Source: an uncultured Bacteroidales bacterium (GTDB taxonomy: Bacteria > Bacteroidota > Bacteroidia > Bacteroidales > P3). Taken from it: a stretch of DNA of 51,561 nt. Each line of letters opens with the position of its first letter. Within the stretch, counting starts at the first letter, position 1. Below the pieces are notes generated by a model. The model ran no database searches and was not told the DNA's origin. It saw only the letters and a list, made by a program, of their open reading frames with translations. Made by a program: the position numbers and the translations under genes. The stretch covers positions 1 through 51,561 of the forward strand of contig ONJQ01000020.1 of assembly GCA_900318175.1 (NCBI GenBank), in the 5' to 3' direction. Of the stretch, positions 10,672-51,551 are shown in pieces.

Positions 10672-11037
10672 ATGAAAATAGTGTCGCATATCATGGTGTC
10701 GCTGTCGGTGTTCCTGCTGCTGGTCTTCGGGGCCGGGGGCATGGGATGCCAGCGTTGCTCCTGCTCCGGGAGGGTGAGTATCCTCCTGTTGGACGATGGC
10801 TGCTGCAACCGGGGCAGCGACTGCATGGATGTGAAGGTGTCGCCGGTGTCGGTGGCAGACATGGTTCAGAATGTGTCGCCGCTGGTCGTGGCACAGATGT
10901 CGCCGATGAGTGTATGCAAACAAGAACCGATATTATGGATGCCCGGAATGTGTGATGTTGTCGTTGGATGGCAATACCGAGGCGTCGGAAGTCCGCCAGG
11001 CTGGTTGTCGGGCAATTGTGCGGTCTTGAGGGTTTGA
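10672..11037 (+). CDS. Small Cys-rich exported protein upstream of TonB receptor
   Basis: A 121-residue protein with a hydrophobic N-terminal signal or anchor (MKIVSHIMVSLSVFLLLVFGAGGMGC). It has clustered cysteines: CQRCSCSG, then DDGCCNRGSDCMDV. This spacing (CxCSG ... GCC ... C) recalls short Cys-rich proteins that I have seen beside TonB receptors and HMA proteins in Bacteroidales metal loci, where they presumably bind metal at the envelope. The gene is followed by the phased repeat array at 11047-11120 and then by the TonB receptor and a secreted HMA protein, consistent with one metal-handling locus. The C-terminal third looks less conserved (many Val/Gly/Pro), and the exact start could be the second methionine. 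Function inferred from context only. Confidence 0.55.
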   Translation: MKIVSHIMVSLSVFLLLVFGAGGMGCQRCSCSGRVSILLLDDGCCNRGSDCMDVKVSPVSVADMVQNVSPLVVAQMSPMSVCKQEPILWMPGMCDVVVGWQYRGVGSPPGWLSGNCAVLRV

Positions 11038-11046
11038 CGATGGCTG

Positions 11047-11120
11047 TTGTGAATGTGTTAACGTGTGACTGCGTTAATGTGTTAGTCAATTAACGGATTA
11101 ACACGTTTACGAATTAACGA
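11047..11120. repeat. Phased 8-bp word array in two inverted arms
   Basis: Left arm, five 8-bp steps from 11047: TTGTGAAT, GTGTTAAC, GTGTGACT, GCGTTAAT, GTGTTAGT. Right arm from 11089: ATTAACGG, ATTAACAC, GTTTACGA, ATTAACGA. The right-arm words are reverse complements of the left-arm type. It lies directly in front of the TonB receptor start. Confidence 0.75.
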
Positions 11121-11147
11121 ATGCAAACTGTCAAATCAAAAGAATAC

Positions 11148-13148
11148 ATGAAAAGGATTATTCTATTTAGCCTGCTGCTGTGTGTGGCGTGGTTTGCCGT
11201 GGCACAGAAGCAGGACACGATACAAAAGAAGACGCTTACAGCGGTGAGCGTGAAGTCGAAGGCCGAGGGCTTGAGTCGCCTCGGCGGTGCCGAGAACGGG
11301 CAGAAGATGGGGCAGGAGGTGCTGTTCCGTGCCGCCTGTTGCAATCTCGGCGAGAGTTTTGTGGCCAATCCCAGCGTGGACGTGAACTACAGTGATGCCG
11401 CTGTGGGCGCCCGCCAAATCAAGTTGTTGGGTCTGAGCGGCCAGTATGTGCAGCTGTTGATAGAGAATCTGCCCTGCTTTGCAGGGGCAGCGTCGCCGTA
11501 TGAGTTGAACTATGTGCCCGGGTCGTGGATGAACAGCATTGCCGTGAGCAAAGGGGCGTCGAGTGTGAAGAGCGGCTTCCAGAGCATCACGGGACAGATA
11601 GATGTCGAGTATCTGAAGCCCGACAAGGAACAGGGCGTGGACATCAACCTGTATACCGACAGCCGTCTGAAGACCGAAGGGAATGCGGTAGCGAACATCC
11701 ACCTGAACAAACATCTGAGCACCGAGCTACTGCTGCATGGCGAGAAAGACTGGCTGCACCACGACATGAACAAGGACGGCTGGCACGACTCGCCAGCTAT
11801 CGGCCAGTGGCATGTGCAGAACCGTTGGAAGTACGTCAACGGCCGCTATATCTTCCACGGAGGTGTCGGCTTGATGCGCGAGGAGCGCGAGGGGGGCCAG
11901 ATGAAGGGCGTTTCGGACAACCCCTTCCGCGTGAAACTGGACGCCGACCGCGTTGAGGCGTATATGAAGCATGCCGTGCTGCTGAACTATGAGCATAACA
12001 CCAACCTCGCCCTGATGGCCACTGGAAGCCTGTATGACCTGCAAGGGGAGTTTGGACGGCGTACCTACTCCACCAAGAACAAGGACCTGTATGCACGGCT
12101 GATGTTTGAACACGAGTTCAACGCGCGTCACCAGCTGTCGGCAGGCCTCAGTCTGCTGATGCAGGGCAAGGATGAGCGGGTGGGGCCGATACGGGTGCCG
12201 GAAAGCATGGTGGGATACCGGCTGATAGACCAGTGGCCAGAGACAGTGCCGGGAGCCTATGCCGAATACACCTATAAGCCGTCGCACAAGCTGACCATGA
12301 TGGCTGGTCTGCGGGTGGACAGGAGCAGCCTGTACGGCACTTTTGTCACTCCGCGACTGCATGCCAAGTGGATGGTCTCGGACATGATGACCTTGCGCCT
12401 GTCGGCAGGCAAAGGCTACCGCTCGCCTCACGCCTGGGCGGAGAACCACTACCTGCTGGCTTCGGGTCGCGATGTGACCGTGGCCGAGGATCTGCGAATG
12501 GAAGAGGCCTGGAACAGCGGCCTGTCCGCAGCGTTCTATATCCCCGTGGGCGAACAGACCCTGAAGCTGAACGCCGAGTATTACTACACGAATTTCATCA
12601 ACCAGCTGGTAGTGGACTACGACAGCGACCCGAAGAAGATAAGTATTGGCATGCTGAAAGGGAAGTCGTTCTCCCACACCGTGCAGGTGGATGGGTCGAT
12701 AGACTTTGACGAGGAGCTGGAACTGACGGCTGCGTTCCGCTACAATGATGTGCGCTGCACCTACGGCGGGCGGCTAATGGAGAAACCCCTCACGTCGCGC
12801 TACAAAGGGCTGCTCACCGTAGCTTGGAAACCCTATATGGGGTTGATACAGGTGGATGTGACCCTGCAGCTGAACGGCGGCGGACGCATGCCCACGCCTT
12901 ACACCACTAAGGACAGAAAGCTCTCGTGGGACGAGCGTTTCCCGGCCTACCCGCAGCTGAACGTGCAGGTGACCCGCCGTTTCCGCCATATCACGGTATA
13001 CGTAGGAGGTGAGAACCTCACAAACTACCGCCAGCCCATCCCCGTAATCGGAGCAGACAACCCGTGGGGCAGCTCTTTCGAGCCGACCATGGTTTGGGGA
13101 CCCGTACACGGAATCATGGGCTACGCAGGTGTGAGAATGAATTTTTAA
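11148..13148 (+). CDS. TonB-dependent outer-membrane receptor, probable metal/metal-complex uptake
   Basis: A 666-residue outer-membrane receptor. The ATG at 11148 was chosen because it gives a normal signal peptide (MKRIILFSLLLCVAWFAVAQ). A plug domain follows (about 25-155; GARQIKLLGLSGQYVQLLIENLP and VSKGASSVKSGFQSITGQIDVE), then a beta-barrel ending in the aromatic residue F (GVRMNF). Such receptors pull substrates through the outer membrane using TonB/ExbBD energy. The upstream Cys-rich protein and the downstream secreted HMA protein suggest a metal or metallophore substrate; the metal cannot be read from the sequence. The gene lacks the N-terminal CarboxypepD_reg domain of SusC-type receptors, so it is not a polysaccharide utilisation transporter. 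The stop codon falls inside an 8-bp word array (13142-13173). Confidence 0.85.
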   Translation: MKRIILFSLLLCVAWFAVAQKQDTIQKKTLTAVSVKSKAEGLSRLGGAENGQKMGQEVLFRAACCNLGESFVANPSVDVNYSDAAVGARQIKLLGLSGQYVQLLIENLPCFAGAASPYELNYVPGSWMNSIAVSKGASSVKSGFQSITGQIDVEYLKPDKEQGVDINLYTDSRLKTEGNAVANIHLNKHLSTELLLHGEKDWLHHDMNKDGWHDSPAIGQWHVQNRWKYVNGRYIFHGGVGLMREEREGGQMKGVSDNPFRVKLDADRVEAYMKHAVLLNYEHNTNLALMATGSLYDLQGEFGRRTYSTKNKDLYARLMFEHEFNARHQLSAGLSLLMQGKDERVGPIRVPESMVGYRLIDQWPETVPGAYAEYTYKPSHKLTMMAGLRVDRSSLYGTFVTPRLHAKWMVSDMMTLRLSAGKGYRSPHAWAENHYLLASGRDVTVAEDLRMEEAWNSGLSAAFYIPVGEQTLKLNAEYYYTNFINQLVVDYDSDPKKISIGMLKGKSFSHTVQVDGSIDFDEELELTAAFRYNDVRCTYGGRLMEKPLTSRYKGLLTVAWKPYMGLIQVDVTLQLNGGGRMPTPYTTKDRKLSWDERFPAYPQLNVQVTRRFRHITVYVGGENLTNYRQPIPVIGADNPWGSSFEPTMVWGPVHGIMGYAGVRMNF

Positions 13149-14679: not shown

Positions 14680-15483
14680 TTATTTGCTGGCTTTCTTGCC
14701 TTTGACGGTCTTGTACTCTTCGTTAAGGCCTTCGATGATCTCGTTGGTGATGTCCATGGCGGGATTCATGTAGAGGGTGGGGGAGTCGTTGAAGGTTTTG
14801 CGCATGATGATGTCGAACTGCTGGTTGGCGGCATTGTATTCGCGCACAAAGGCAAAGATGCGGTTGAGGAGTTCGATGTTGGCATCCAGCTGTTTCTGCA
14901 TGACTTTCTGTGTGAGCTCTGCTTCGAGGGTTGCGAGTTTCTCGGAGCGCTGTTTGAGCTCGGCCTCGGTGGCTTGCTGCTGGCTGAGGGTCATGTTCTC
15001 GCCGGTTTGCAGATAGGTCTGATAGTCCTTCTGGAACTTGGTCACCTGCTGCTGGTAGTTCTTTTCCTGTGAATCCTTGTATTTGTTGAGTTCTTCCTGA
15101 AGGTCGATGGCATATTGGTATTTGGCCAGGAGGGTGTCGCTGTCGATACAGGCAATTTTGAGGGCTCCGTCTTTGGCCACCACGGGTGCCGTGGCGTTGG
15201 GATTGTGCATGCTGCGGGTGCCGATGCCGGTGAAGTGGAAGATGTAAAGGAGTACGAGGCCGATGAGCAGCACGATGTTGCACACGAGGATGGCCGTATG
15301 GCAGCAATTCTTCTTGCTGTTGCAGCTGTTGTCCTTGGGGGCATTGGGGGCTTGTGCGGCAGGGCTTTCGGTGTTGGGCATAGGCTCGGGGTTGGCAGGA
15401 TGTTGTTCTTGGGGTTCTTTCATGCTGATGGTGTCGAGGCTGTTGTCGTCGACGGGTTTGTTGAGGTCTTGATTGATTTCCAT
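14680..15483 (-). CDS. OmpH/Skp-like periplasmic chaperone with N-terminal membrane anchor
   Basis: A 267-residue protein. A Pro/Ala-rich cytoplasmic N-terminus (1-60) is followed by one membrane helix (about 63-84, AILVCNIVLLIGLVLLYIF). The periplasmic part starts KIACIDSDTLLAKYQYAIDL, the OmpH entry motif, and continues as a long Gln/Glu/Lys coiled coil (about 125-225) that returns through FVREYNAANQQFDIIM. This is the Skp/OmpH fold, which holds unfolded outer-membrane proteins. Most Skp proteins have a cleavable signal; here the anchor and 60-residue cytoplasmic tail are unusual but known among Bacteroidales relatives. It is the last gene of a run with gltX upstream. Confidence 0.8.
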   Translation of the reverse strand: MEINQDLNKPVDDNSLDTISMKEPQEQHPANPEPMPNTESPAAQAPNAPKDNSCNSKKNCCHTAILVCNIVLLIGLVLLYIFHFTGIGTRSMHNPNATAPVVAKDGALKIACIDSDTLLAKYQYAIDLQEELNKYKDSQEKNYQQQVTKFQKDYQTYLQTGENMTLSQQQATEAELKQRSEKLATLEAELTQKVMQKQLDANIELLNRIFAFVREYNAANQQFDIIMRKTFNDSPTLYMNPAMDITNEIIEGLNEEYKTVKGKKASK

Positions 15484-15497
15484 TGTTGTATTGTTTT

Positions 15498-15533
15498 TTG
15501 TCGGACTTGTCGAACTTGTCAGACTTGTCGGAC
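15498..15533. repeat. Four tandem 9-bp repeats (TTGTCGGAC type)
   Basis: TTGTCGGAC, TTGTCGAAC, TTGTCAGAC, TTGTCGGAC in exact 9-bp register, filling the gap between the gltX stop and the OmpH-like start. Confidence 0.9.
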
Positions 15534-15544
15534 GGTGATTATTC

Positions 15545-17080
15545 TTATTGATTGTCTATCTCGCCGAGGGTGTCGATGGCACGCTGCACACGGGCAATGG
15601 TCTCTTCTTTGCCAATAGTCATGACGAGTGTGAGCATGTCGGGGCCGACGGTGGTGCCGACGACAGCAAGGCGCAGAGAGTTCATAATCTGGCCCATGTT
15701 GAGTTCGTTGCCTTTGATGTAGTCCTCAAGGAGGGCCTGATGGATGGCGTCGTACTCAAAGGGGACGGTGTTGAGGATTTCGATGACTTTGGCCATGTGG
15801 GTGGTCATGCCGGGTTTCCAGCGTTTGGCCACTGCCTTGGGATCGTACTCGGTGGGTGCGACGAAGAAGTAGTGTGTCTGGTCCCACAGCTCGGAGGGGA
15901 AGGAGATGCGCTCTTTCATCATGCCGCAGACTTTGACAACATAGTCGTGGGGGGCATCGATGCCATGCTCTTTGAGTTGGGGGAGGAACATCTCGGCTAT
16001 ACGCTCGTCTGAGCATTTCTGCAGATACTCGTGGTTGAACCATTTGGCTTTCTCGATGTTGAACTTGGCTCCGCTCTTGCTGATATGCTCTATGCTGAAG
16101 AGGCTGATGAGCTCGTCCATCGTCATGAGCTCCTGATCGTTGCCGGGGTTCCAGCCGAGGAGGGCCAGCATGTTCACCACGGCCTCGGGCAGGTAGCCGC
16201 GTTCGCGGTAGCCGGAAGAGAGTTCGCCAGTCTCAGGATTGTGCCAGTCGAGGGGGAAGACGGGGAATCCCAGGCGGTCGCCGTCGCGCTTGCTCAGCTT
16301 GCCGTTGCCGTCGGGTTTGAGCAGCAGGGGCAGGTGGGCGAACTGGGGCATGGTATCTTCCCAGCCAAAGGCGCGGTAGAGCATGACGTGGAGGGGAGCC
16401 GAAGGCAACCACTCCTCGCCACGGATGACGTGCGACACCTCCATGAGGTGGTCGTCCACGATGTTAGCCAGATGGTAGGTGGGCATGCCGTCCGACTTGA
16501 AAAGCACCTTGTCGTCCAGCAGGCGGCTGTTCATGGCAACGTCGCCGCGGATAAGGTCGTGGACGGTGATGTCGATATTCTCAGGGAACTTGAAGCGGAC
16601 CACATACGGGTCGCCGTTCTCCAGGCGGCGTGCCACCTCGTCGGCGCCCAGAGAGAGGCTGTTCTCCATGGTGCCGCGGGTGGTGCAGTCGTACTGGAAG
16701 GTCTTCTTTTGCGCTTCATATTCCTTGCGCTTGGCGTCGAGGACTTCAGGGCGGTCAAAGGCGTAGTAGGCCCAGCCGTCGCGCAGCAGTTGGTCCGCAT
16801 ATTGGCGGTAGAGGGGTTTGCGGTCACTTTGGCGGTAGGGGCCGTAGTTGCCACCGATGTGGACTCCCTCGTCAAACTTGATGCCGAGCCAGTCGAGGGC
16901 TTCGATAATATAGTCTTCGGCACCGGGAACGAAACGGGTCTGGTCTGTGTCTTCGATGCGCAGTATCATGTCGCCGCCATTTTGGCGGGCAAAGAGGTAG
17001 TTGTACAAAGCGGTGCGGACGCCGCCGATGTGCAGCGGGCCTGTGGGACTGGGGGCAAAACGGACGCGAACTTTTCTCAT
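15545..17080 (-). CDS. gltX: Glutamyl-tRNA synthetase
   Basis: A 511-residue class I synthetase that charges tRNA-Glu with glutamate in the cytoplasm. The HIGH-type motif [10 protein letters not shown] (11-20) and the KMSKS-type motif KLSKRDG (261-267) are both present. The anticodon-binding C-terminal helical region continues to the end (LGEIDNQ). The N-terminal [20 protein letters not shown] is the canonical start, so the ATG at 17080 is secure. Length is normal for bacterial GluRS. It lies between the glycosyltransferase and the OmpH-like gene on the same strand with short gaps filled by repeat words, and is probably part of the same transcript. Confidence 0.97.
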
Positions 17081-17106
17081 GTTATTTTTTATTTTGTATT
17101 TAGTTT

Positions 17107-17139
17107 CTATTTCTTTTCTATTTTATTTCTATTTTGTTT
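17107..17139. repeat. Three tandem 11-bp T-rich repeats
   Basis: CTATTTCTTTT, CTATTTTATTT, CTATTTTGTTT in 11-bp register within a longer T-rich gap (17085-17140). The third unit covers the stop codon of the glycosyltransferase (17129-17131, minus strand). Confidence 0.75.
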
Positions 17140-18139
17140 GTAGTTGACTGAATAAATGGTGACGAAGCAGATAGTAATCAACAAGTATCAGCCGAGGGTG
17201 GATACAGCTGACGGGAAGCTGCTGCTGCCTCCGCAGGCGCTTCACCTTGAGGCGGGGCATCCACTTGTAGAAGGCTCTGTGGGCTTGTACCACGGCGGAG
17301 AACTCTTTTGGTTTGCGTTCCATCAGGAATTTGAACGCTGCCACATAGTCCAGCACCACACGGCAGACCATGACCCATGCCAGTCGGCTCTGGGGCAGGT
17401 TCTTGTAGAGGAGAGCCATGTTGTTGCGGAAGTTGAGGTAGGTCTTGTGGGGATTGGACTTGGGCAGGGTGCCGCCGCCCACGTGGTACACCACCGAGTG
17501 GGGGCAGTATTCCACTTCGTAGCCGGCATTCTTGGCGCGCCAGCAGAAGTCAATCTCCTCCATGTGGGCGAAAAAGTCGTCGTCCAGGCCGCCCAACTCC
17601 TTCCATACCGACGAGCGGACAAACATCGCGGCCCCCGAAGCCCAGAAGATAGGGCAGGGGTCGTCGTACTGGCCACGGTCCTGCTCCAGTGTGGTGAACA
17701 TGCGACCACGGCAGAAGGGGTAGCCGTATTTATCGATGAAACCGCCAGCGCCGCCGGCATACTCGAAGGTGTCCCGCTGGTCGTACATCAGCAGCTTGGG
17801 CTGGCAGATGGCCGTCTGCGGGTGTTGCTCCATTTGGGCTATGACGGGTTCAATCCAGTTGGGCGTCACCTCTACATCGTCGTTCAGCAGCACGTAGTAG
17901 TCGGCCTCGACCTGCTCCAAGGCGCGGTTGTAGCCGCCGGCAAAGCCGTAGTTCTTGTCCAACTCGATAATGCGCAACTGGGGGTAGTGCTCCCGCACAA
18001 AGGCAAGGGAGTCGTCAGTAGAGCCGTTGTCGGCAATGATTACCTCGGTGTCGCCCGTGCTGTGGAGTGTGACCGACGGCAGAAAACGCTCCAGCATTTT
18101 CTTCCCATTCCAGTTCAGTATCACAACGGCAGTGGTCAT
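17129..18139 (-). CDS. Family 2 glycosyltransferase (rhamnosyltransferase-like)
   Basis: A 336-residue GT-A fold enzyme. The ATG at 18139 (MTTAVVILNWNGKKML) gives the usual GT2 start; the frame is open eight codons further. Motifs: VVILNWNG, IIADNGSTDDS, the metal-binding LLNDDVEV (DD), and EEIDFCWRAKNAGYEV in the acceptor region. It probably adds a sugar to a lipid-linked precursor of a surface polysaccharide or lipopolysaccharide on the cytoplasmic face of the membrane; the substrate cannot be told. No membrane segment is seen apart from mild hydrophobicity near the C-terminus. The adjacent acyltransferase of the LpxL type fits a lipid A/LPS role. The C-terminal end overlaps an 11-bp repeat unit. 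Confidence 0.85.
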   Translation of the reverse strand: MTTAVVILNWNGKKMLERFLPSVTLHSTGDTEVIIADNGSTDDSLAFVREHYPQLRIIELDKNYGFAGGYNRALEQVEADYYVLLNDDVEVTPNWIEPVIAQMEQHPQTAICQPKLLMYDQRDTFEYAGGAGGFIDKYGYPFCRGRMFTTLEQDRGQYDDPCPIFWASGAAMFVRSSVWKELGGLDDDFFAHMEEIDFCWRAKNAGYEVEYCPHSVVYHVGGGTLPKSNPHKTYLNFRNNMALLYKNLPQSRLAWVMVCRVVLDYVAAFKFLMERKPKEFSAVVQAHRAFYKWMPRLKVKRLRRQQQLPVSCIHPRLILVDYYLLRHHLFSQLQTK

Positions 18140-18195
18140 TCTCTTCTCTTCAGTTTGATGCAATTAGTGGCTAATTGTGTGTGGGGTATAAAGTA

Positions 18196-19038
18196 TTATT
18201 CAACAGTCAGTGGTTTCAGCTCCATGTCGGCAGGGCGTGTGCGTTTCCAGCGCCGGTGGGACCACAGCCAGTACTCAGGCTTTTTGTTGATGGTCTGCTT
18301 GAGCATGGCTATGTAGCGCGAAGTGATGGTGTATTGCGGCACTTCGTCGGGCCTTTCGCACAGGGGCGTGAAGCGCACCTCATAGCGTCCGCGCTGCACC
18401 TTGGTCACTTCGTAGTAGAGGACGGGCATGTTGTACTTGCGTGCAAAATACTCGGCCCCGTAGAGAAAGGGCGTCTCCTGGTTCATGAACATGGTCCAGA
18501 AGGACTTGTGCACATCGTTGGGGGATTGGTCGCTCAGCATCATATAGGCCACGGGCACCTTGTGCTGGTGGTAATAATCCATGGTCTGCCGCACGTTGTG
18601 CTGGTCCACAATCTCGGTGCCGTAGCGTCCGCGCCTGCGCGTGATGTACGATGCCACAGACTTGTCCTGTAAGGGCTTGCCGACACCCACGCCGTGGTGC
18701 ATCACTTGGTAGTTCAGCGAGGTGATCATGTACTCCCAGTTGTTGTAGTGTGCCGACATCAGCACCACGCTCTGCCCGCTCTCGTAGTAGCGGTTCACCA
18801 CTTCGCGGTTCACAAAACGGTATCGCTTCATGATGCTCTGCGGACGGGCGTAGAGGTTGTAGATGCCCTCCATGAGCAGGTCGCAGATGTGGTGATAGTA
18901 GGCCCGCTCAATCTCCTTGCGCCTTTCCGCACTGAGTTGGGGGTAGGCCTTGGCCAGATTGGCGCTCGTCACGCCACGGCGGTAGCGCACCACATGGTAG
19001 GCTATCACAAATAATATGTCGGACAGGATGCTGCTCAA
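18196..19038 (-). CDS. Lipid A-type lysophospholipid acyltransferase (LpxL/HtrB family), non-ATG start
   Basis: A 280-residue acyltransferase of the LpxL/LpxM family, which adds a secondary acyl chain to lipid A at the inner membrane. The catalytic HX4E-type motif is SAHYNNWEY, followed by GVGVGKPLQDKSV, MLSDQSP and a C-terminal WLWSHRRWKR. The reading frame begins with TTG at 19038; an in-frame TAG lies ten codons upstream and there is no ATG. The family normally has about 25 more residues (a membrane-associated helix) before the ILSDILFVIAYHVVRYRR region seen here, so the N-terminus is short. The stop of the GWxTD gene is 32 nt upstream. Confidence 0.82.
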   Translation of the reverse strand: MSSILSDILFVIAYHVVRYRRGVTSANLAKAYPQLSAERRKEIERAYYHHICDLLMEGIYNLYARPQSIMKRYRFVNREVVNRYYESGQSVVLMSAHYNNWEYMITSLNYQVMHHGVGVGKPLQDKSVASYITRRRGRYGTEIVDQHNVRQTMDYYHQHKVPVAYMMLSDQSPNDVHKSFWTMFMNQETPFLYGAEYFARKYNMPVLYYEVTKVQRGRYEVRFTPLCERPDEVPQYTITSRYIAMLKQTINKKPEYWLWSHRRWKRTRPADMELKPLTVE

Positions 19039-26427: not shown

Positions 26428-27246
26428 TTAGATTTTTGAGATTATGGAGCGCAGTAAGGTTGTCATCTGTTCAGCGGCGCGGTTGGCTTGCAGCACCACG
26501 TCGTCGCCATCGTTGAGGCAGCTGTCGCTGAGGTCGTTGCTTTGATTGGTGATGATGCTGATGCCGAATATTTCAAGGCCGCAGTGGCGTGCCACAATGA
26601 CTTCGGGAACGGTGCTCATGCCCGCAGCGTCGCCTCCAAGGGTGGCGTACATGCGGTATTCGGCGGGAGTCTCGTAGGTGGGGCCAGTGCCGGCCACGTA
26701 AACCCCTTGGCGTAGGGTGATGCCGAGGCTGGCAGCCTCAGCAATGGCCACTTGGCGCAGTCGGCGGCTGTAGACGGTGGTCATGTCGGGAAAGCGGGGT
26801 CCGAGTTCATCCAGATTGGGTCCGATGAGGGGATTGGGCATGAGGTTGATGTGGTCCGTGATGACCATCATGTCGCCCACTCGGAAGTCGGGGTTGACGG
26901 CTCCTGCGGCGTTGCTGACAAAGAGGGTCTTCACGCCGAGACGCGCCAGCACACGGACGGGGAAGGTGACTTGGTCCATGCTGTAGCCTTCGTAGTAGTG
27001 GAGACGGCCCTGCATGGCAAAGACCCGTTTGCCTCCGAGGGTGCCGACGATGAGGTTGCCCTTATGGCCGGTGGCTGTTGATGTTTGGAAGTTGGGGATT
27101 TGGCTATACGGGATCGTGATGGGCTGCTCGATGTGGTCAGCCAAGGGGCCGAGGCCACTGCCAAGAATGATGGCTATCTGGGGTACATCGTCGCCCGCAA
27201 TGCCGAGCAGGAAACGGCTGCTTTCGTCTATCTTTTGAAGGGTCAT
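26428..27246 (-). CDS. Purine nucleoside phosphorylase (PNP-I, inosine/guanosine type)
   Basis: A 272-residue enzyme of the trimeric PNP family that splits purine nucleosides with phosphate into base and ribose-1-phosphate. Motifs: IILGSGLGPLADHI (phosphate site), GRLHYYEGYS, VSNAAGAVNPDFRVGDMMVITDHIN, and GPTYETPAE. The N-terminus MTLQKIDESSRFLLGIAGDDVPQIAI is normal, so the ATG at 27246 is taken. It sits in a run with the HAD phosphatase downstream and the bifunctional nuclease and rdgB upstream, a nucleotide-metabolism group. A phased 8-bp array occupies the gap upstream of its start. Confidence 0.93.
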   Translation of the reverse strand: MTLQKIDESSRFLLGIAGDDVPQIAIILGSGLGPLADHIEQPITIPYSQIPNFQTSTATGHKGNLIVGTLGGKRVFAMQGRLHYYEGYSMDQVTFPVRVLARLGVKTLFVSNAAGAVNPDFRVGDMMVITDHINLMPNPLIGPNLDELGPRFPDMTTVYSRRLRQVAIAEAASLGITLRQGVYVAGTGPTYETPAEYRMYATLGGDAAGMSTVPEVIVARHCGLEIFGISIITNQSNDLSDSCLNDGDDVVLQANRAAEQMTTLLRSIISKI

Positions 27247-27249
27247 GGA

Positions 27250-27297
27250 GTGAATGTGGCAATTCGTTAATGTGGGAATGTGTTAATGTGATAGTGG
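27250..27297. repeat. Phased 8-bp word array upstream of the PNP gene
   Basis: Six octamers in register from 27250: GTGAATGT, GGCAATTC, GTTAATGT, GGGAATGT, GTTAATGT, GATAGTGG. It nearly fills the gap between two co-directional genes. Confidence 0.7.
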
Positions 27298-27303
27298 GCG
27301 CTT

Positions 27304-27870
27304 TCAGGTTGATTTCAGTTGGTTGATGCGCTTCATGATTTCGGCGGCTTGTTCGTAGTCTTCGGCTTCCTCGCATTGGCGCAGTTTCTCTTCCAGCTGT
27401 TCAATGGTCTCTTCGGGGTTGGGGAGATGGGCTTTGTTCTGCGGCATGTTGGCTTCGAGGGCGCCGGGCTCCATGGAGGTCTCTTCGAGCACCGAAAGGT
27501 CCATCATCACGTCGCACCCCTGCATGAGGGCCAGGATGATGGCGTCCGTGGTGCGGCTGTCGACATGCTTCTCGGTGAAACCGTCGCTGATGAAGAGTGT
27601 GGAGTAGAAGATGCCCTCTTCGAAACGGTCAATGGTAACCTTTTTCAGCGTCAGCATGAAGCTTTCCATGATGTTGAAAAGGAGATTGTGGGTGAGCGGA
27701 CGGCGCGCCTGCCGACGCTCGATGGCCATGACGATGGCCTGAGCCTCTGTCTCGCCGATGATGACGGGTATCTGCTTGCCACGCTCGGGCGCACTGAGCA
27801 CAAGCACGTAGGCATCGCTCATGGACGGTGTTTGGAGTATCTGTAGGGGGAATACGTTAGTATAGTTCAT
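27304..27870 (-). CDS. Bifunctional nuclease (BFN/DUF151) family protein with UvrB/C motif
   Basis: A 188-residue protein. Residues 1-130 form the DUF151/bifunctional nuclease domain: LVLSAPERGKQIPVIIGETEAQAI, then HVDSRTTDAIILALMQGCDVMM. Residues about 148-185 are a UVR helical hairpin (IEQLEEKLRQCEEAEDYEQAAEIMKRINQL), as found in UvrB, UvrC and McsA. Plant and bacterial BFN proteins have reported nuclease activity, but the cellular role of bacterial members is poorly defined. The gene lies between rdgB and the PNP gene in a minus-strand run with short gaps. The combination of both domains is the usual Bacteroidota architecture. Confidence 0.9.
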   Translation of the reverse strand: MNYTNVFPLQILQTPSMSDAYVLVLSAPERGKQIPVIIGETEAQAIVMAIERRQARRPLTHNLLFNIMESFMLTLKKVTIDRFEEGIFYSTLFISDGFTEKHVDSRTTDAIILALMQGCDVMMDLSVLEETSMEPGALEANMPQNKAHLPNPEETIEQLEEKLRQCEEAEDYEQAAEIMKRINQLKST

Positions 27871-44571: not shown

Positions 44572-44686
44572 GTCGGGGTGTGTCGCTCTCGGCGCATCAT
44601 GTGGCTCTTTAGGTTTACATTGGCAGAGGGGCAATAATACGCTCTTATTGGCGTTATCAATGCAGAATCAAAAAACTCCTACCGAT

Positions 44687-47600
44687 ATGAAAAAGTCGTT
44701 CATCCTCCTTGTGCTCCTTGGCTTGGCCATGGGGAGCCTCTGTTCACAAACCGTGTTGAAGAAGACTCAACAGGCAGCAACAGCCTCCGACGGATTTGCC
44801 CGCATAGAAGCGATGCTGGAAAAACAGCACTACAGCGATGCCTTTGCCGCGGCGGACAGTCTGCGGAACGCCGCGTTGCATATGGCAGAAGCACGCGGAA
44901 CCGACGCGGAACTGTCGCACCGACTGCTTGCCGCCACATGGTATATGGAGCGTGCCGCCATGCGCTATCAGGAAGATGCGATGGACAGCAGCCTGTCGCG
45001 CTTCCGTGCCGTGATGCCCTATCTGGTACCCGTGGACCGCGCTGTGTGCCACCTGTTCCTCGGCAATGTCGACTCCGCCTTGGTGGACACCCTCTCCCTG
45101 CGCGGTGTGCCCAACAGCAGTCTGGCACCTTTCTGTGAGCAACCCAAGGAGGCGTTGTTCAACATCACCCCGACGGTGTATGACCTGCTGATGCACTTGG
45201 CCGTGCAAAATGTGCCGTTGGAGCGGGGACTGGAACTGCAGCGGCAGTTGGTGGAGTACAGCCGCAGCCGTGGCGACATGAACTTGACGCTCTACAACGA
45301 ACTGCGTTGGCTGGAACTGATGGATGGCAAGCCTAACCTCTCCAAGCCTTACCGTCGCCGCTTGGTGCAGGATCGTCTGAACCGCTACCGTAGCAGCGGC
45401 AACGAGCAGGTGGCGCTGCTGTATCTCAAGTTGGCACGCATGGCGGAGGCGGACGATGACTTTGTCGCAGCCGTGGCCTATTGCGACAGCGCCATCAGCC
45501 GCTGGCCCAAGAGCCAAGGGGGCGTGGAGTGCGCCAATCTTAAAAAAGGAATAAAGGAGCCTGTAATCTCTGTCGATATGCAGGAAGTGTGTGCCGCCGG
45601 GCGCGACCTGCTGGTGCGCGTGACGAGCCGGAACACAGCAGAGCTGCACTACCGTGTCATCGCCTTCCCAGCGGGCTATGACCCATACAAGCTCAGCGAC
45701 GAGCAAGCGCGTGCACGGCTGCTGGCATGCAGTGTGAAGGAACGCTGGCAGCAGAAGCTGACGGACGGCAGCGCGGAGCAGCGGCCTGTCAAGATGGGCG
45801 ACTATCAGTACCACCACCATTACGGCTACGTGCCGGCATTGGCACCGGGGCATTACATGCTTTTGGTGTCGCCGTCGGCGGACTTCAAGAGCAAAGGATT
45901 TGTGGCGAATGGATTCACCGTGGCGGGTGCTGCCATCGTGCTGACGCAGTGCGACTCCACTGGCGTGAGCGGCTATGTGGTGGACAACGTCAGCGGCCAG
46001 CCCGTGCGCAACCAGCGTGTGGACTTGCGGCGAAGCCTTACATACCCAGTGAAGTTCACCACCCTCGGCACGGTGAAGACTGATGCTGACGGCTTTTTTG
46101 CCTTCAAGCAGCGCTTGGTGAGCAGAGAGGTAACCAAGAAGGGGTATTGGCAATACTACGATTACCAGCTGACGATGCGCCACAGAGGGTTGGACATAAC
46201 ACGCGAACTGCTCCCCGCAGGCGGTGACGATGCCTCGGCGCAGCGCAGTGACTACCAACTGCTGGTGGACAGGCCGGTATATCGGCCCGGCGACACGGTG
46301 CAATTCCTGTTGCTGGCCGCCAGCGTGAACGGTGGCCGCGAGGGCCACACTGTGGCTGGGCAGCGCATCAGGATGGAGCTCCGCGACGTGAACCACAAAG
46401 TGGTGGACTCGCTGAGCGGCGCCACGGATGGATTTGGCCGTGTGAGCGGGCGGTTCGTGATTGCCCCCAAGGCACTTCCCGGCAGTTTCAGCCTTCAGGC
46501 TTTCGGACCGATGGAGAAGAGCGTTAGCCGTGCGGGAACGACGATGAGCCGCAGGGGTGAGCAGATGGTGGCACTCCGCTACCTGAACGTGGAGGCCTAC
46601 AAACAGCCCAAATTCACCGTCACGCTGAAGGCGCGAGACCGTCGCGACAGCGCAGGGCAGAGCCTTGCCCCACGAATGGGCGACAGCTTGGTGGTGGAAG
46701 GTATGGCGGCATCGTACACGCAGGTACCTGTGGCGGGTGCGCGTGTGCGGTGGTCCGTGACGCGCACCATGGTGCGCCCATGGTGGCGCCGCTGGTATGG
46801 CAATATGCCTTTCGACGGTTCCGCAAATGTGGCTTCTGACTCACTGACCACCGACGCGGAAGGACTGTTCCGAATAGCCTTTGTCGCTTTGCCGGACAGC
46901 GCGGTGGAACTCTCCACACGCCCTTGTTTCCAGTATCAGGTGCAGGTGGACGTGACCGACCTGAACGGCGAGACGCACAGCCAGCGGCTGACCCTGAAAG
47001 CCGGCTATGAGAACAGCTATGTGCACATCACCCTGCCCCAGCAGACCTCCGACCTGAAAGAACTGACGTACCAGTATTGCGACCTGAACGGCACGCCGAT
47101 GAAAGGATATGTGAATGTGGAGGTGGAGCAGCTGCGGCTGCCGGAACGCCTGTGGTTGGAGCATCCGCAGTTGCGGAGCGGCGTGCTGCACACGATGGGG
47201 GAGACGGAGTTCAGGAAACGTTTCCCGCTGACTCCTTATAGCTACGACGAGACGCAGATGGCTCACTGGGAGGTGGAGAAACGCGTGCTGCTGGCGCGGG
47301 TGGAGAGCCATGACCAGTTGGTGAACAGCATGAAGATGCCCATGCTGGGAGCAGGTGTCTATCGCATCATACTGACCCCCGACAGCGGTCCCAAGGAGCT
47401 GCGCCCCATGGCGGACACAGCCGTAGTGGTGTACACTCCCAAGGGTTGCCAAAGGGTGTACACGCAACAACTGCTGTGGAGCGAAGTGAGCAGCGAGAGC
47501 GCACGGGTGGGCGAGACAGTAAGGCTGCGTGTGGGAACCCGCCATGAGGGCGTGCGGGTGATGTACCGCCTGACGCATGGCAACCGGGTGATAGACAGAC

Positions 47601-50600
47601 GGGTGCTGACACTGAATGACGAGATTGAGACCATAAATATACCCGTCAGCGACGCGTTGCTGGGAGGATTCGAGATAGAGCTGTGCGCCCTGAAGGAGGG
47701 CCGCAGCAGCACGGTGAGGCACCGTGTGGAAGTGCCTTACGGCCACAAAAAGCTGGATGTGGAGTTCCTCACCTACCGCGACAGGCTGACGCCTGGCCAA
47801 AGGGAGCGATGGACACTGAGGGTGAAGAAGGCACAGGAGGCAGACAGCTCGGCAGCACTGCCCGGCACGCAGGGGAAGCAGAGCACGATGGATGCGGCAC
47901 TGCTGCTTGGCATGTACGACGCCGCGCTGAACAGCTACGGCTATGTGGACTACAGCTGGTGGCCGTGGCGCAACGCCCAATCGCAGAGCCTGATGGGTGT
48001 GAACTATGCATTCGATTGGCAGTATCAGTCAAGCCGCCAACTGATCGTGCCACAGGGGGAATGGCTATTCTATAAGGGGAAAACACCCGCCGGTTGGAAT
48101 TTCACCGCCCTGGACCACAGGGGGAGGCGCTGGAGGCGGGCAGGAATTGCGGAGCCGTATTTGGAGGAGATTGTGGCCTCTGTGGGAGGCGTGGGATACG
48201 CCACCGCCCGCGGTGAGGATGGTATGGTGACCATGTCAGCCAAGAGGGCCAAGAGCAGCAATGCCGCACCCGCCCCAGAGGTGTCGGCAGAGTTGGAAGT
48301 GGTGGAGAACTATGCGGTTGAGGAAGAATTAGTCGAGTTGGATGAGGCCGACAATGGTACGGGAGTTTCCGCTGAGAAACCCTATCTGCGCACCAATCAG
48401 AGCACGCTGGCATTCTTCGAACCTACACTGCGCACCGCTCCGGACGGGACGTTGGAATACAGTTTCACTGCACCGGACCTGCTGACGGAGTGGGACGTGA
48501 AGGGGTTGGCTTGGACGCGCGACCTTTCGGTCGGCAACGTGGAACGGAAACTGATTACGCGCAAGCAACTGATGGTGCAGCCCAACATGCCGCGTTTCCT
48601 GCGCGAAGGGGACAGCGCAACCTTGATGGCCAAGGTGATGAACCTGACAGACAGCACGCTGACGGCGGAGGTGCACTTTAGTTTCACCTTCCCTACAACG
48701 GACGGTAAGGGGCGCGAGCAGGAGGCAGTGAGAAGGGTGACGGTAGGCGCACACGGCTCGGAGCAGGTGCTGTTCCCAGTCGTGGTGACAGCGGGCGGCA
48801 CGGTGGCAACGTACAAGTTTGTGGCCACAGCCAGCCAGCATAGCGACGGGGAGCAAGGCCCCCTGCCCCTGCTGACAAACCGACAGGCAGTGACCCGGTC
48901 GGTGAGCATGTACATGAACGGCGCAGGCAGCAAGCAGTATGCCATGGAACTCCCGGCCTCGACGACGGCTCGTCCCGTTAGCTTCACGGTGGAGTATACG
49001 TCCAACCCCGTGTGGATGGCTATTCAGACATTGCCGTATATGAGCCAGTGCAGCAATCCGTCTAACATATACCTTTTCAACAGCTATTATGTCAACTCGT
49101 TGGGCAAGAAGATTGCTAACCTGTTCCCGGAACTGAAGCATTGCGCCGACGGCGCCACGGAGCAGGCGAGCCCCTTGATGCGCAACGCGGATGTGCGGCA
49201 AACCCTGTTGGAGGAGACGCCGTGGCTGGGCGACGGCGAGAGCGAAGTGGAACGGCTGCGGAACATTGCCCGCTACTATGACGACGAGGAGCTGGCGCGA
49301 CAGTGCAGCGAGGCCTTTGAAAAACTGCAACGGGAGCAGCACGCCGACGGCGGTTGGCCCTGGATGCCCGGCGGCAGATGGAGCAGCCCCTATGTGACTC
49401 AGTATATCCTGAAGGGCTACGGAATGATGGAACGGCAGTTGCCGCGCGGCAAAACGAGGATGCAAAGCCGCGCCCTGGACTTTGTGGACAAGGCGGCACT
49501 GCAGGACTATTTAGAGTGGAAACGCTTTTTGGACAAGCATCCCGGCAGTACCTGCAAGCCCATCATGCTGGATTACCTCTACACGAGGAGCTACTATCTG
49601 GGGAAGTCGTTCTCTGCTGGCACAAAGAAGGCCTACGATTTCTTCTACGCCAACGCCAAGGAGCGTTACGGCGAGTACACCTCCTTGTATGATCAAGCGT
49701 TGCTGGCGCTCGTCTTCCAGCGTAACGGCGACACTCGGCTGGCTCGGGAGATGGTGGAGCGCATCAGGCAGAAAGCCCTTCGCAGTGACGAGATGGGCAT
49801 GTATTGGCGCGACAACAAGGCGGGCTATTACTATTACCAACGCCCTGTGGAGACGCAGGCACTGCTGATTGAGACCTTCCGCGAGGTGGTGCCGCAGGAC
49901 ACTCTGTCCGTGGCTCAGATGCAGCAATGGCTGCTGAAACAGAAGCAGACCACACGGTGGAGCTCGGACATCGCCACACTGCGGGCCATTCAGGCCCTGA
50001 TGCCTATCGGGGCAACGGAGAAGAGTGGCTTTGGAAGATTGGCAGGTTCGGACCGCATTGTGGTGCGCGGAAAGGCCATGACCGATACCCTTGTCGCGCC
50101 GCAGCAGGATGCCGGCTATTTGCGGCATACCTACCGCGCCGACACTTTGGAACAGATGGTGGGAACGCGGAACCTCTCGGCCACTATTACAAGGGCCAAC
50201 AAGGGGATTGTCTGGGGTGCGCTCTATTACCAGTACACTGAGCAGATGGACAAGATTGAGGCCTCGGAAACGGGCGTCACCCTGCAGCGGCAGCTTTTCA
50301 AGGTGGAGGCCGACGGGTCGCTGACCGAGCTGAAGAAGGGTAGGGGACTGCGCGTGGGTGACCGTCTGCGGGTGCGGCTGCATGTCAGCTGCGACAGGGT
50401 GTTGGAATATGTGGAGCTGAAGGAACTGCGTGCTGCCAGTCTGGAGCCTGTGACCACCTCCTCCGGCTGGGCTTGGAGTAGTGGGCTGAACTACTACGTC
50501 GCCGTGATGAACAGCCACAACGCCGTCTATATCGACCGCTTGGAAAAAGGCAAGTATATCATCGACGCAGAATACTACGTGACCAACCCCGGCACCTTCA

Positions 50601-50683
50601 CCCTGCCTCCTTCAGTGCTGCAATGCCTCTACGCCCCAGAATTCCGCGCCACCACCCCCGGCCAAAGAATAGAGGTGAGATAG
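44687..50683 (+). CDS. Alpha-2-macroglobulin family protein lacking the thioester motif
   Basis: A 1998-residue exported protein, normal length for Bacteroidota A2M. The ATG at 44687 gives a signal peptide (MKKSFILLVLLGLAMGSLCSQ); the earlier frame is not signal-like. Marks: a CarboxypepD_reg-like segment (GYVVDNVSGQPVRNQRVDLRR, about 428-450), the MG2 motif DRPVYRPGDTV (528-538), the A2M entry LAFFEPTLRTAPDGTLEYSFTAPDLLTEWDVKGLAW (split) near 1245-1285, and a helical toroid (QTLPYMSQCSNPSNIYLFNSYYVNSLG). At the position of the thioester CGEQ the protein has C1455-S-N-P, so no thioester can form. Bacterial A2Ms trap proteases in the periplasm; without thioester the trap would work sterically, if at all. 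It lies right after two secreted cysteine proteases. Confidence 0.9.
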   Translation: MKKSFILLVLLGLAMGSLCSQTVLKKTQQAATASDGFARIEAMLEKQHYSDAFAAADSLRNAALHMAEARGTDAELSHRLLAATWYMERAAMRYQEDAMDSSLSRFRAVMPYLVPVDRAVCHLFLGNVDSALVDTLSLRGVPNSSLAPFCEQPKEALFNITPTVYDLLMHLAVQNVPLERGLELQRQLVEYSRSRGDMNLTLYNELRWLELMDGKPNLSKPYRRRLVQDRLNRYRSSGNEQVALLYLKLARMAEADDDFVAAVAYCDSAISRWPKSQGGVECANLKKGIKEPVISVDMQEVCAAGRDLLVRVTSRNTAELHYRVIAFPAGYDPYKLSDEQARARLLACSVKERWQQKLTDGSAEQRPVKMGDYQYHHHYGYVPALAPGHYMLLVSPSADFKSKGFVANGFTVAGAAIVLTQCDSTGVSGYVVDNVSGQPVRNQRVDLRRSLTYPVKFTTLGTVKTDADGFFAFKQRLVSREVTKKGYWQYYDYQLTMRHRGLDITRELLPAGGDDASAQRSDYQLLVDRPVYRPGDTVQFLLLAASVNGGREGHTVAGQRIRMELRDVNHKVVDSLSGATDGFGRVSGRFVIAPKALPGSFSLQAFGPMEKSVSRAGTTMSRRGEQMVALRYLNVEAYKQPKFTVTLKARDRRDSAGQSLAPRMGDSLVVEGMAASYTQVPVAGARVRWSVTRTMVRPWWRRWYGNMPFDGSANVASDSLTTDAEGLFRIAFVALPDSAVELSTRPCFQYQVQVDVTDLNGETHSQRLTLKAGYENSYVHITLPQQTSDLKELTYQYCDLNGTPMKGYVNVEVEQLRLPERLWLEHPQLRSGVLHTMGETEFRKRFPLTPYSYDETQMAHWEVEKRVLLARVESHDQLVNSMKMPMLGAGVYRIILTPDSGPKELRPMADTAVVVYTPKGCQRVYTQQLLWSEVSSESARVGETVRLRVGTRHEGVRVMYRLTHGNRVIDRRVLTLNDEIETINIPVSDALLGGFEIELCALKEGRSSTVRHRVEVPYGHKKLDVEFLTYRDRLTPGQRERWTLRVKKAQEADSSAALPGTQGKQSTMDAALLLGMYDAALNSYGYVDYSWWPWRNAQSQSLMGVNYAFDWQYQSSRQLIVPQGEWLFYKGKTPAGWNFTALDHRGRRWRRAGIAEPYLEEIVASVGGVGYATARGEDGMVTMSAKRAKSSNAAPAPEVSAELEVVENYAVEEELVELDEADNGTGVSAEKPYLRTNQSTLAFFEPTLRTAPDGTLEYSFTAPDLLTEWDVKGLAWTRDLSVGNVERKLITRKQLMVQPNMPRFLREGDSATLMAKVMNLTDSTLTAEVHFSFTFPTTDGKGREQEAVRRVTVGAHGSEQVLFPVVVTAGGTVATYKFVATASQHSDGEQGPLPLLTNRQAVTRSVSMYMNGAGSKQYAMELPASTTARPVSFTVEYTSNPVWMAIQTLPYMSQCSNPSNIYLFNSYYVNSLGKKIANLFPELKHCADGATEQASPLMRNADVRQTLLEETPWLGDGESEVERLRNIARYYDDEELARQCSEAFEKLQREQHADGGWPWMPGGRWSSPYVTQYILKGYGMMERQLPRGKTRMQSRALDFVDKAALQDYLEWKRFLDKHPGSTCKPIMLDYLYTRSYYLGKSFSAGTKKAYDFFYANAKERYGEYTSLYDQALLALVFQRNGDTRLAREMVERIRQKALRSDEMGMYWRDNKAGYYYYQRPVETQALLIETFREVVPQDTLSVAQMQQWLLKQKQTTRWSSDIATLRAIQALMPIGATEKSGFGRLAGSDRIVVRGKAMTDTLVAPQQDAGYLRHTYRADTLEQMVGTRNLSATITRANKGIVWGALYYQYTEQMDKIEASETGVTLQRQLFKVEADGSLTELKKGRGLRVGDRLRVRLHVSCDRVLEYVELKELRAASLEPVTTSSGWAWSSGLNYYVAVMNSHNAVYIDRLEKGKYIIDAEYYVTNPGTFTLPPSVLQCLYAPEFRATTPGQRIEVR

Positions 50684-50808
50684 AAAGGATAGAGGGATAG
50701 AACAGATAGATAAGATAGAAATAAATAGAAACTAGCCTATAATGTCTATCTCTTCTATCAAATCTATCCCCTCTATCGAATCTATTAAATCTATAAAATC
50801 TATCAAGT
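50679..50808. repeat. Phased 9-bp word array in two inverted arms
   Basis: Left arm from 50679: GATAGAAAG, GATAGAGG, GATAGAACA, GATAGATAA, GATAGAAAT, AAATAGAAA (one unit is 8 bp). Right arm, seven exact 9-bp units from 50746: CTATCTCTT, CTATCAAAT, CTATCCCCT, CTATCGAAT, CTATTAAAT, CTATAAAAT, CTATCAAGT. The left-arm core GATAG is the complement of CTATC. The first unit contains the A2M stop codon. Confidence 0.9.
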
Positions 50809-50830
50809 CAAATTAAAAACCAAAACAACA

Positions 50831-51502
50831 ATGCAAGAAGAAGACAAATACCACTACCTCCGCAAGCAAGCCCACTGGGAGAACCTTTGGTTCTACCAGA
50901 AAACGGTGACGCTCTACGATATGACAGTGGTATTCTGTAGGCGGTTCCTCCCTGCCCATGGCGACCGCACAGTTGACCAGATGGTGCAAGCTGCCCGTAG
51001 CGGTAAGCAGAACATAGTGGAGGGTTCAGCTGACGGGGTAACCTCCACCGAGATGGAGGCGAAGCTGCTCAATGTGGCGCGAGCCAGCATCAAGGAACTG
51101 AAAGAGGACTACCTCGACTATCTCCGTAGCCATAAGCTTACGCTGTGGGACGTGTCTCATCCCCGCTATGCCGCCATGCAACACTTCTGCCAAAAGCACA
51201 ACAAGATTGAGGATTACGAACCCTTCTTCGACCGCTGGACCGACGAGGAGATGGCAAACGCAGCTGTGACACTCTCCTGCATGGTAGACACCATGATGCA
51301 GACCTATCAAAAGAAGAAAGAAAAAGAATTCGTAACCGAAGGCGGCATCAAAGAACGCATGACCGCCGCCCGCCTCGACTTCCGCTCCGACAAGAAAGAA
51401 GAATTAGAAGCCGCCCACCGTGAGATGAACGCCCTGCGCGCCCGCCTCCAACAATTAGAGCAAGAAAACGCTCTCCTCCGCCAACAATTGAAACAAATCT
51501 GA
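50831..51502 (+). CDS. Four-helix-bundle suffix-domain protein with coiled-coil tail
   Basis: A 223-residue protein. Residues 1-145 match the four-helix-bundle type (23S rRNA intervening-sequence protein/suffix-domain group): LWFYQKTVTLYDMTVVFCRRFL, RTVDQMVQAARSGKQNIVEGSADG, TEMEAKLLNVARASIKELKEDYLDYL. A linker and a coiled coil follow (about 180-223; EELEAAHREMNALRARLQQLEQENALLRQQL). Related small bundles include the Avd accessory proteins of diversity-generating retroelements, but no reverse transcriptase is present in this window. It is bracketed on both sides by phased 9-bp arrays (50679-50808 and 51516-51551). Function not established; nucleic-acid binding is plausible from the family. 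Confidence 0.85.
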   Translation: MQEEDKYHYLRKQAHWENLWFYQKTVTLYDMTVVFCRRFLPAHGDRTVDQMVQAARSGKQNIVEGSADGVTSTEMEAKLLNVARASIKELKEDYLDYLRSHKLTLWDVSHPRYAAMQHFCQKHNKIEDYEPFFDRWTDEEMANAAVTLSCMVDTMMQTYQKKKEKEFVTEGGIKERMTAARLDFRSDKKEELEAAHREMNALRARLQQLEQENALLRQQLKQI

Positions 51503-51515
51503 AACAATATTTAGC

Positions 51516-51551
51516 CTATCCTATCTATCCAATCTATAATTTCTATTAAGA
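51516..51551. repeat. Phased 9-bp word array downstream of the four-helix-bundle gene
   Basis: Four 9-bp units from 51516: CTATCCTAT, CTATCCAAT, CTATAATTT, CTATTAAGA. Same word family and orientation as the right arm of the array at 50746-50808; probably continues past the window end. Confidence 0.8.

Follow-up and report, generated by a model that had tools for sequence, protein, structure and literature searches.

The stretch of DNA analysed here, referred to as the window, comprises all 51,561 nucleotides of contig ONJQ01000020.1 from an uncultured Bacteroidales bacterium (assembly GCA_900318175.1). Close to its right end lies a gene for a small four-helix-bundle protein with arrays of a short word, repeated at a fixed step, on both sides. 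This array-gene-array unit and its relatives in other genomes are the subject of this analysis. The gene (50831..51502, plus strand) encodes 223 amino acids, in which profiles and an AlphaFold2 model show a four-helix bundle of S23 type together with the TIGR04258 suffix and a long C-terminal helix. The right arm of the upstream repeats (50737..50808, plus strand) consists of eight CTATnnnnn units with starts at 50737, 50746 and so on to 50800; an earlier note on this DNA was right about the exact 9-bp step and one unit short in counting seven. The left arm (50679..50728, minus strand) contains five GATAG units (at 50679, 50688, 50696, 50705 and 50714) and one AATAG unit (at 50724), which read CTATC or CTATT on the minus strand, and in the RNA fold it can pair with the right arm. 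The same note had recognised this inverted arm, which is phased only roughly, with steps of 9, 8, 9, 9 and 10 bp. Downstream of the stop codon, where the note had also placed them, four more CTATnnnnn units at a 9-bp step form a further array (51516..51551, plus strand). The window locus therefore has an inverted-repeat plan, with a GATAG arm upstream and CTATC arrays on both sides of an S23-type open reading frame (ORF). The contig ends at 51561, and the right flank of the element lies beyond it. On the left, the element is flanked, here and in relatives, by a gene for a protein of 2007 amino acids (44660..50683, plus strand), presumably alpha-2-macroglobulin-like, whose stop codon falls within the first GATAG unit.

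The consensus over the arrays of the window's genome is TCTATCnnn. In the window array the spacer bases vary and the word is conserved, the CTAT columns being fixed by the way units were picked. A pattern of three CTAT at a 9-bp step matches nine times in the window, always at this locus, and not once in 100 dinucleotide shuffles; runs of CTAT at step 9 never exceeded two units in 20,000 shuffles of positions 50679-50830. The RNA fold of positions 50679-50815 is a hairpin of short stems separated mostly by internal loops of 2-3 nt (z = -6.5), and none of 200 dinucleotide shuffles equals it. A chance origin of the window arrays was rejected on the basis of the shuffle tests and of the 9-bp phase near the genes of relatives.

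The note's view of a small four-helix-bundle protein, a group in which it counted rRNA intervening-sequence proteins, is borne out by both profiles and fold, which place the window protein in the S23 family. TIGR02436 (S23 four helix bundle) matches residues 22-92 with 30.5 bits (NCBIfam cut-off 24), and TIGR04258 (four helix bundle suffix) matches residues 138-185 with 56 bits (cut-off 40); the score for Pfam family PF05635 is 28 bits, below its gathering score of 33.8. The AlphaFold2 model has a mean pLDDT of 93.2 and a pTM of 0.78, and in a Foldseek search the S23 structures 2gsc and 2rld, the latter that of BT_0352 from Bacteroides thetaiotaomicron, rank at the top with a probability of 1.00. 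A phage or defence gene was considered and rejected: no phage record matched the window protein or the other protein searched, no defence family was matched by PADLOC, and one plasmid record held a suffix-type relative.

TIGR04258 is present in 71 of the 149 genomes of the window's GTDB family. Phase near these suffix-type genes was measured as agreement of the sequence with itself at lags of 4 to 18 bases in a sliding window of 45. The main set of 94 genes (97 matches minus the duplicate L053 and two short ORFs, L164 and one of L168) combines 30 loci, 60 regions chosen down the list of matches, of which the set covers a part, and the genome's own genes, that is, the window gene and its three paralogues. 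At a threshold of at least 0.70, lag 9 occurs near 63 of the 94 genes (mean maximum 0.753), lag 18 near 47, lag 10 near 7, and every other lag near two at most. In far DNA, more than 800 nt away and amounting to several-fold more sequence, the numbers are 6 of 94 for lag 9, 10 for lag 7, and 6 for lag 11. The check that the note had proposed, phased arrays near homologues against control DNA, thus turned out strongly positive. A second set, the best 80 of 572 relatives found, covers named Bacteroidales, Prevotellaceae and other drafts, many of them labelled rumen or gut, together with the cultured Prevotellamassilia timonensis and Hoylesella timonensis. At a threshold of 0.65, these genes show lag 9 in 45 of 80, lag 10 in 15, lag 8 in 5 and lag 7 in 2, against none at any lag in shuffled near-gene DNA; far DNA has lag 9 in 8 of 80 and lag 7 in 16 of 80. 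Without the two relatives already in the 94-gene set, the near-gene counts are 43 of 78 for lag 9, 15 for lag 10, and 5 for lag 8. Arrays often lie on both sides of the gene, and several protein clades keep the array-gene-array plan. The RNA fold upstream of the gene has z < -3 at 20 of 64 loci, against 3 of 64 in far DNA.

The repeated word differs from clade to clade, so that one inherited array cannot explain all phased loci. TCTATC is found at the window and at L136, L159, L163 and L164. Further words are TCTAGA, ACTAGT, CTATAG or CTATAAA, CTTAAAG, GTCnGAC and CCCATTAA. CCTAGG occurs at a 10-bp step (L064, L067, L110), a GAnTAnTC-like word is often translated as QNN repeats at the protein start, and a TCCGGA-like word appears in the named set (L246). 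Many of these words are their own reverse complement. Exceptions are TCTATC, AACTAT and CCCATTAA, which form two inverted arms at the loci inspected; the arms of CCCATTAA surround the stop codon. On a protein tree of 93 rows (L144 and L164 left out), word labels taken from a hand-made list, with 24 of 95 rows unlabelled, require 24 changes when "no label" counts as a state, against 61.2 after shuffling, and none of 200 shuffles is as low; without the unlabelled rows 14 changes suffice. The TCTATC types form one supported clade, adjoining the TCTAGA types. At five loci (L051, L060, L073, L077, L078), units with GTCnGAC or CCCATTAA lie directly 5' of the same gene, which we take to be transketolase-like, as if the gap before it had been filled by different elements in different species.

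Paralogues without the suffix domain, about 120 amino acids long, are also accompanied by arrays, mostly of 7 bp. In a sample of the phylum, TIGR02436 genes were found in 153 of 198 genomes. For these suffix-less loci, a threshold of 0.75 and a window of 28 were used, and the far stretches were longer than the near ones. Among 30 loci from the same family, lag 7 is found in 16 near against 8 far and lag 9 in 2 near against 4 far; the count of 16 is the same whether ORFs are taken from the profile (30 of 30 found) or from a regular expression (18 of 30). Among 30 loci from the phylum sample, lag 8 is found in 6 near against 1 far, and lag 9 in none. A stronger sign than lag 7 for the suffix-less types is the inversion of the arms. 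Inverted arms prevail over direct ones at 25 against 3 of the 30 family loci (far control 6 against 4) and at 20 against 4 of the 30 phylum loci (far control 8 against 5), both counts allowing for overlap of array and gene. A separate count over 34 loci gave 25 against 3 and missed the arms of L373, where the downstream array overlaps the gene end. Plasmid records matching one suffix-less protein number 25, of which 21 are cyanobacterial and 4 are from Riemerella. Lag 7 is strong in 13 of 17 plasmid regions near the gene and in 3 of 17 far from it, the regions being 16 of the 25 suffix-less records and one suffix-type plasmid. It follows from the lag counts in both subfamilies that the step length varies mostly with the protein subfamily, being mostly 7 or 8 without the suffix domain and 9 or 10 with it.

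Comparison of corresponding sites revealed the same junctions in full, solo and empty form. For example, plasmids pNsp_c (L372) and pNsp_a (L373) of Nostoc sp. ATCC 53789 have a common gene run with 91-99% identity, in which different four-helix units occupy different gaps, so that each plasmid provides the empty site of the other. The units consist of a heptamer array, the gene and an inverted heptamer array. TTCTA flanks the L373 unit on both sides, a single case and a possible duplication, and L372 has extra bases at its right end. Another example is the junction of two genes that we take to be aspS and menA, read at 30 loci, one per genome. Twenty have neither a four-helix gene nor at least three CTA at 9 or 10 bp. 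In 12 of them the junction is tight, with 112-128 nt between two motifs; the other eight have about 40 nt more and for that reason are not strictly empty, and some hold 7- or 8-bp repeats by eye. A solo array is present at four loci (L410, L426 and L427 at 9 bp, L436 at 10 bp) and a full unit at another four (L407, L415, L420, L433). Two loci were unusable because aspS was not found in one and menA in the other. The left flank of the window recurs in genome G091, in which array, gene and array separate the macroglobulin-like gene from the one that follows it. Genome G127 has the same two neighbours and an array only, 30 nt of which it has in common with the downstream array of G091, as expected if recombination between arrays removed the gene. 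In G092 the same neighbours enclose a degenerate array. Occupied and empty sites with common flanks, by which a mobile element is recognised, are thus both at hand. Units can also lie within operons: one sits on the other strand between nrdB and nrdA, and units of cyanobacterial plasmids lie within CRISPR-Cas runs (L361, L371, L370), between cas6 and cas4 and between cas10 and a cmr3-type gene.

Arrays are also dispersed in the absence of the gene. CTAT arrays recur at many further places in the genome of the window. A 63-kb stretch (G000 C45:160861-223741, L039-L042) alone holds twelve, eleven of them on one strand, and two end within 4 nt of a start codon. This stretch lies in or near a phage-like gene run with a 1375-aa ORF, presumably tape-measure-like, and a prophage on C45 may carry or have collected CTAT arrays. 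Across the family, CTA at five 9-bp steps is found in 67 of 149 genomes. Counts of array presence were made by hand from tables, with a pattern that covers CTA words only and in drafts that are incomplete. In the window's genus, such arrays occur in 51 of 62 genomes with TIGR04258 and in 9 of 17 in which the gene was not found (Fisher p 0.02); the figures for other genera are 2 of 9 and 5 of 61 (p 0.22). Where arrays stand without a matching gene, the gene may have been lost or may lie in missing contigs, or other factors may have spread the arrays. Twenty regions from two genomes rich in CTAG arrays contain 22 arrays, 7 in gaps between tandem genes and, according to simple ORF calls, 15 inside open frames. 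One of the 22 lies in a 30-residue insert of a TruB relative: the alignments with solved TruB chains flank residues 172-206, and about 30 residues of this part, where the array lies, have no counterpart in those chains.

We consider it likely that the gene and its arrays constitute one mobile and probably selfish element, ended by arrays, related to the intervening sequences (IVS) of 23S rRNA, and encoding a protein that recognises its own word. That gene and arrays belong together, as the note proposed, is supported both by the phase near relatives and by the full, solo and empty sites. The element would consist of a phased array, an S23-type four-helix-bundle gene and a second phased array, and would insert mostly in gene gaps. 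Its ends would be many short words at a fixed step rather than a single long terminal repeat. Loss of the gene would reduce it to a solo array; copies of the word's array are found scattered over the genome. Because the arms are inverted in the suffix-less types, and the words are self-complementary or the arms locally inverted in the suffix types, the ends can adopt hairpin folds, be it as RNA or as single-stranded DNA. The protein may read the word at each step and thereby mark, protect or move its own element. By analogy with a solved relative, it may assemble into an oligomeric ring, and one word per ring subunit would explain why the step is strict and the spacers are free. The protein may bind its word, whether as DNA or as RNA: the note's proposal that the protein binds the arrays gains some plausibility, indirectly, from the fact that the word follows the protein clade. 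The element may also be mobile at present.

Several observations weigh against this interpretation. Movement itself was not observed, and presence and absence could partly reflect loss. No nuclease, recombinase or reverse transcriptase was seen within the array-gene-array unit. The 94 genes are not independent of one another; they are related, many occupy a common locus, and a clade of 22 rows has a single word. Agreement between word and clade is also expected from plain co-inheritance of array and gene; it supports one unit more than binding, and is weak proof that the protein binds the word. In the suffix types, 9-mers common to both sides of the gene are direct in 36 and inverted in 12 of the 94. 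For the suffix-less genes of the phylum sample, lag 7 is found near 6 of 30, hardly above 5 of 30 far, and gives no excess by itself. The Foldseek E-values are weak, 0.016 and more, with none below 0.001. The note had named as damaging to its reading an equal occurrence of arrays in genomes that lack the gene. Measured by this, the arrays in nine genomes of the genus in which no TIGR04258 gene was found weigh against that reading and disfavour a strict one-to-one link. Genomes G120, G101 and G117 are rich in CTA arrays, yet the genes found there bear other words. Finally, most of the genomes are incomplete drafts.

The rival that survives best, though we think it unlikely, is a host regulator: the protein would be a ring-shaped RNA- or DNA-binding protein, which would find its sites in the arrays of leaders and gene gaps and have its regulon in the dispersed ones. 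Ring regulators of this kind are exemplified by TRAP-like proteins, which bind one phased unit per subunit. Such a role would suit the word that follows the protein clade, the good RNA folds at the window and upstream of relatives, and the arrays directly upstream of start codons or between tandem genes, as with 7 of the 22 dispersed arrays. It accounts poorly for the other 15, which lie inside open frames and include the TruB-relative insert, for the unit on the other strand inside the nrdB-nrdA operon, for the arrays often found on both sides of the gene, and for junctions that are without, solo or full in different genomes.

It is less probable still that the arrays are a separate parasite, resembling miniature inverted-repeat transposable elements or repetitive extragenic palindromic (REP) sequences and moved by an unrelated enzyme, and that the gene is a passenger or a host factor caught between them. 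Arrays do outnumber genes and occur without them, and the want of a nuclease in the unit would have a ready explanation; however, both the word and its period correlate with the protein, and several protein clades keep the array-gene-array plan. Neutral short tandem repeats, grown by slippage beside a gene that is adjacent by chance or because both tolerate gaps, would be in keeping with the frequency of such repeats in gaps and with the arrays of far DNA (lags 7 and 11 in the 94-gene set, lag 7 in the named set). We regard this origin as very improbable, and slippage was judged unlikely because the word is kept while the spacers vary; moreover, the phase is tied to gene and subfamily, and suffix-less arms are inverted. 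Least credible of all is a part of a diversity-generating retroelement (DGR) with the window protein as its Avd, a kinship that the note had raised: a suffix-less relative does match the PHROG named Avd protein of DGR (E 6.9e-7), but the window protein has no PHROG match, no Avd entry is among the 50 folds listed for its model, and the reverse transcriptase profile RVT_1 (PF00078), positive in 3 of 14 control genomes, has no match in the window's genome (91.8% complete), so that the retroelement reading is left unsupported.

Among known systems, the closest to the selfish element proposed here is the IVS of Coxiella. According to PMC4990558, the S23p gene of this 23S rRNA insertion is enclosed by inverted repeats, which fold into a stem, and the whole is called a selfish genetic element; it ends in a stem of 28 bp, has GACAGAT heptamers in tandem before the S23p start codon, and is cut by RNase III. 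The paper describes the S23 family as without known function and cites a pentameric ring of four-helix bundles for a Xanthomonas protein. This plan of heptamers, terminal stem and S23p gene is that of the suffix-less elements. The window element likewise has an S23-type ORF between inverted repeats, although the suffix types overall are more often direct. Since a gene within paired repeats is the IVS plan, the window element can be read as a relative of the IVS that resides in operons of protein genes, is longer in step and carries the suffix domain. It differs in location, as it lies after the gene for the 2007-aa protein and not inside a 23S rRNA gene; the elements described here lie between protein genes, with arrays also inside them. 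Moreover, the suffix types have mostly 9- or 10-bp steps, and the arrays described here differ in word and occur scattered as solo copies.

A second point of comparison is REP sequences and bacterial interspersed mosaic elements (BIME) with their REP-associated tyrosine transposase (RAYT). These are palindromic dispersed repeats tied to a cognate protein clade and found beside its gene, RAYT being a Y1 transposase. The tie of palindromic dispersed repeats to one protein clade, beside its gene, is common to both. In contrast, the gene between the arrays here is S23-type and not a Y1 transposase (the flanks were not searched for Y1), and the repeats are arrays of words of 6-7 bp at a fixed step. 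A third comparison is with published heptamers. Repeats of TAACTGA are reported from Beggiatoaceae, cyanobacteria and Bacteroidetes (PMC4679880), and GGGAATC from Xanthomonas and GGGGA(C/T)T from Nostoc, those of Xanthomonas often as inverted pairs, with 70 and 75 cases (PMC4692102). The repeats resemble ours as tandem words of 7 bp between genes, and the groups that carry them possess S23 genes as well. The difference is the tie to the S23 gene, which is proposed here. The text of the two papers holds no match for S23 or helix bundle, and among the papers listed by full-text searches, which covered neither preprints nor most subscription papers, no title or opening of an abstract connects S23 or TIGR02436 genes with phased repeats.

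The relatives in Bacteroidota and on cyanobacterial plasmids keep the layout with different words and spacings and look like insertions between genes. They suggest a family of mobile elements that has received little recognition, and S23-type elements are a possible origin of the puzzling seven-base repeats. A bolder extension, which we offer tentatively and hold to be doubtful, is that of a new class: a nuclease-less mobile unit whose ends are short-word arrays read in register by a four-helix-bundle ring, with the step (7, 8, 9 or 10) set by protein geometry. Other faces of this class would be the 23S rRNA IVS and the heptamer repeats, so far without explanation, of cyanobacteria, Xanthomonas, Beggiatoaceae and Bacteroidota. 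Such units would scatter solo arrays into the gaps between genes and, a step of 9 bp being three codons long, also into reading frames. Published reports of heptamer repeats leave their cause unsettled, and the tie would offer a testable one for S23 genes and repeats alike, namely a protein specific for one word, together with the array of that word. The list of mobile elements would gain a type that has no nuclease of its own, and nature would provide a series of protein-word pairs in which both specificity and step length have been altered repeatedly; in-frame inserts and interrupted operons would have one of their sources explained.

Other phased repeats lie elsewhere in the window. At positions 15498-15533, in the gap between minus-strand genes 14680-15483 and 15545-17080 (the latter presumably glutamyl-tRNA synthetase-like), four GTCGGAC-like units (GTCGGAC, GTCGAAC, GTCAGAC, GTCGGAC) at a 9-bp step form a solo array, whose word belongs with another gene of the same genome, at C57 (L048). 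Facing arrays of 8-bp units, TGTTAATG-like and then AATTAACG-like, occupy positions 11048-11122 between genes 10672-11037 and 11121-13148 and resemble the 8-bp arrays of some suffix-less relatives. The space separating gene 26428-27246 from gene 27304-27870 holds TTAATGTG-like units of 8 bp at positions 27253-27290, and TTTCTATTT units of about 11 bp lie at 17087-17139 between the divergent genes 15545-17080 and 17156-18316. A 138-bp tandem repeat of about six copies (8126-8945) lies within a minus-strand gene of 859 amino acids, which probably encodes a repeat-domain protein.

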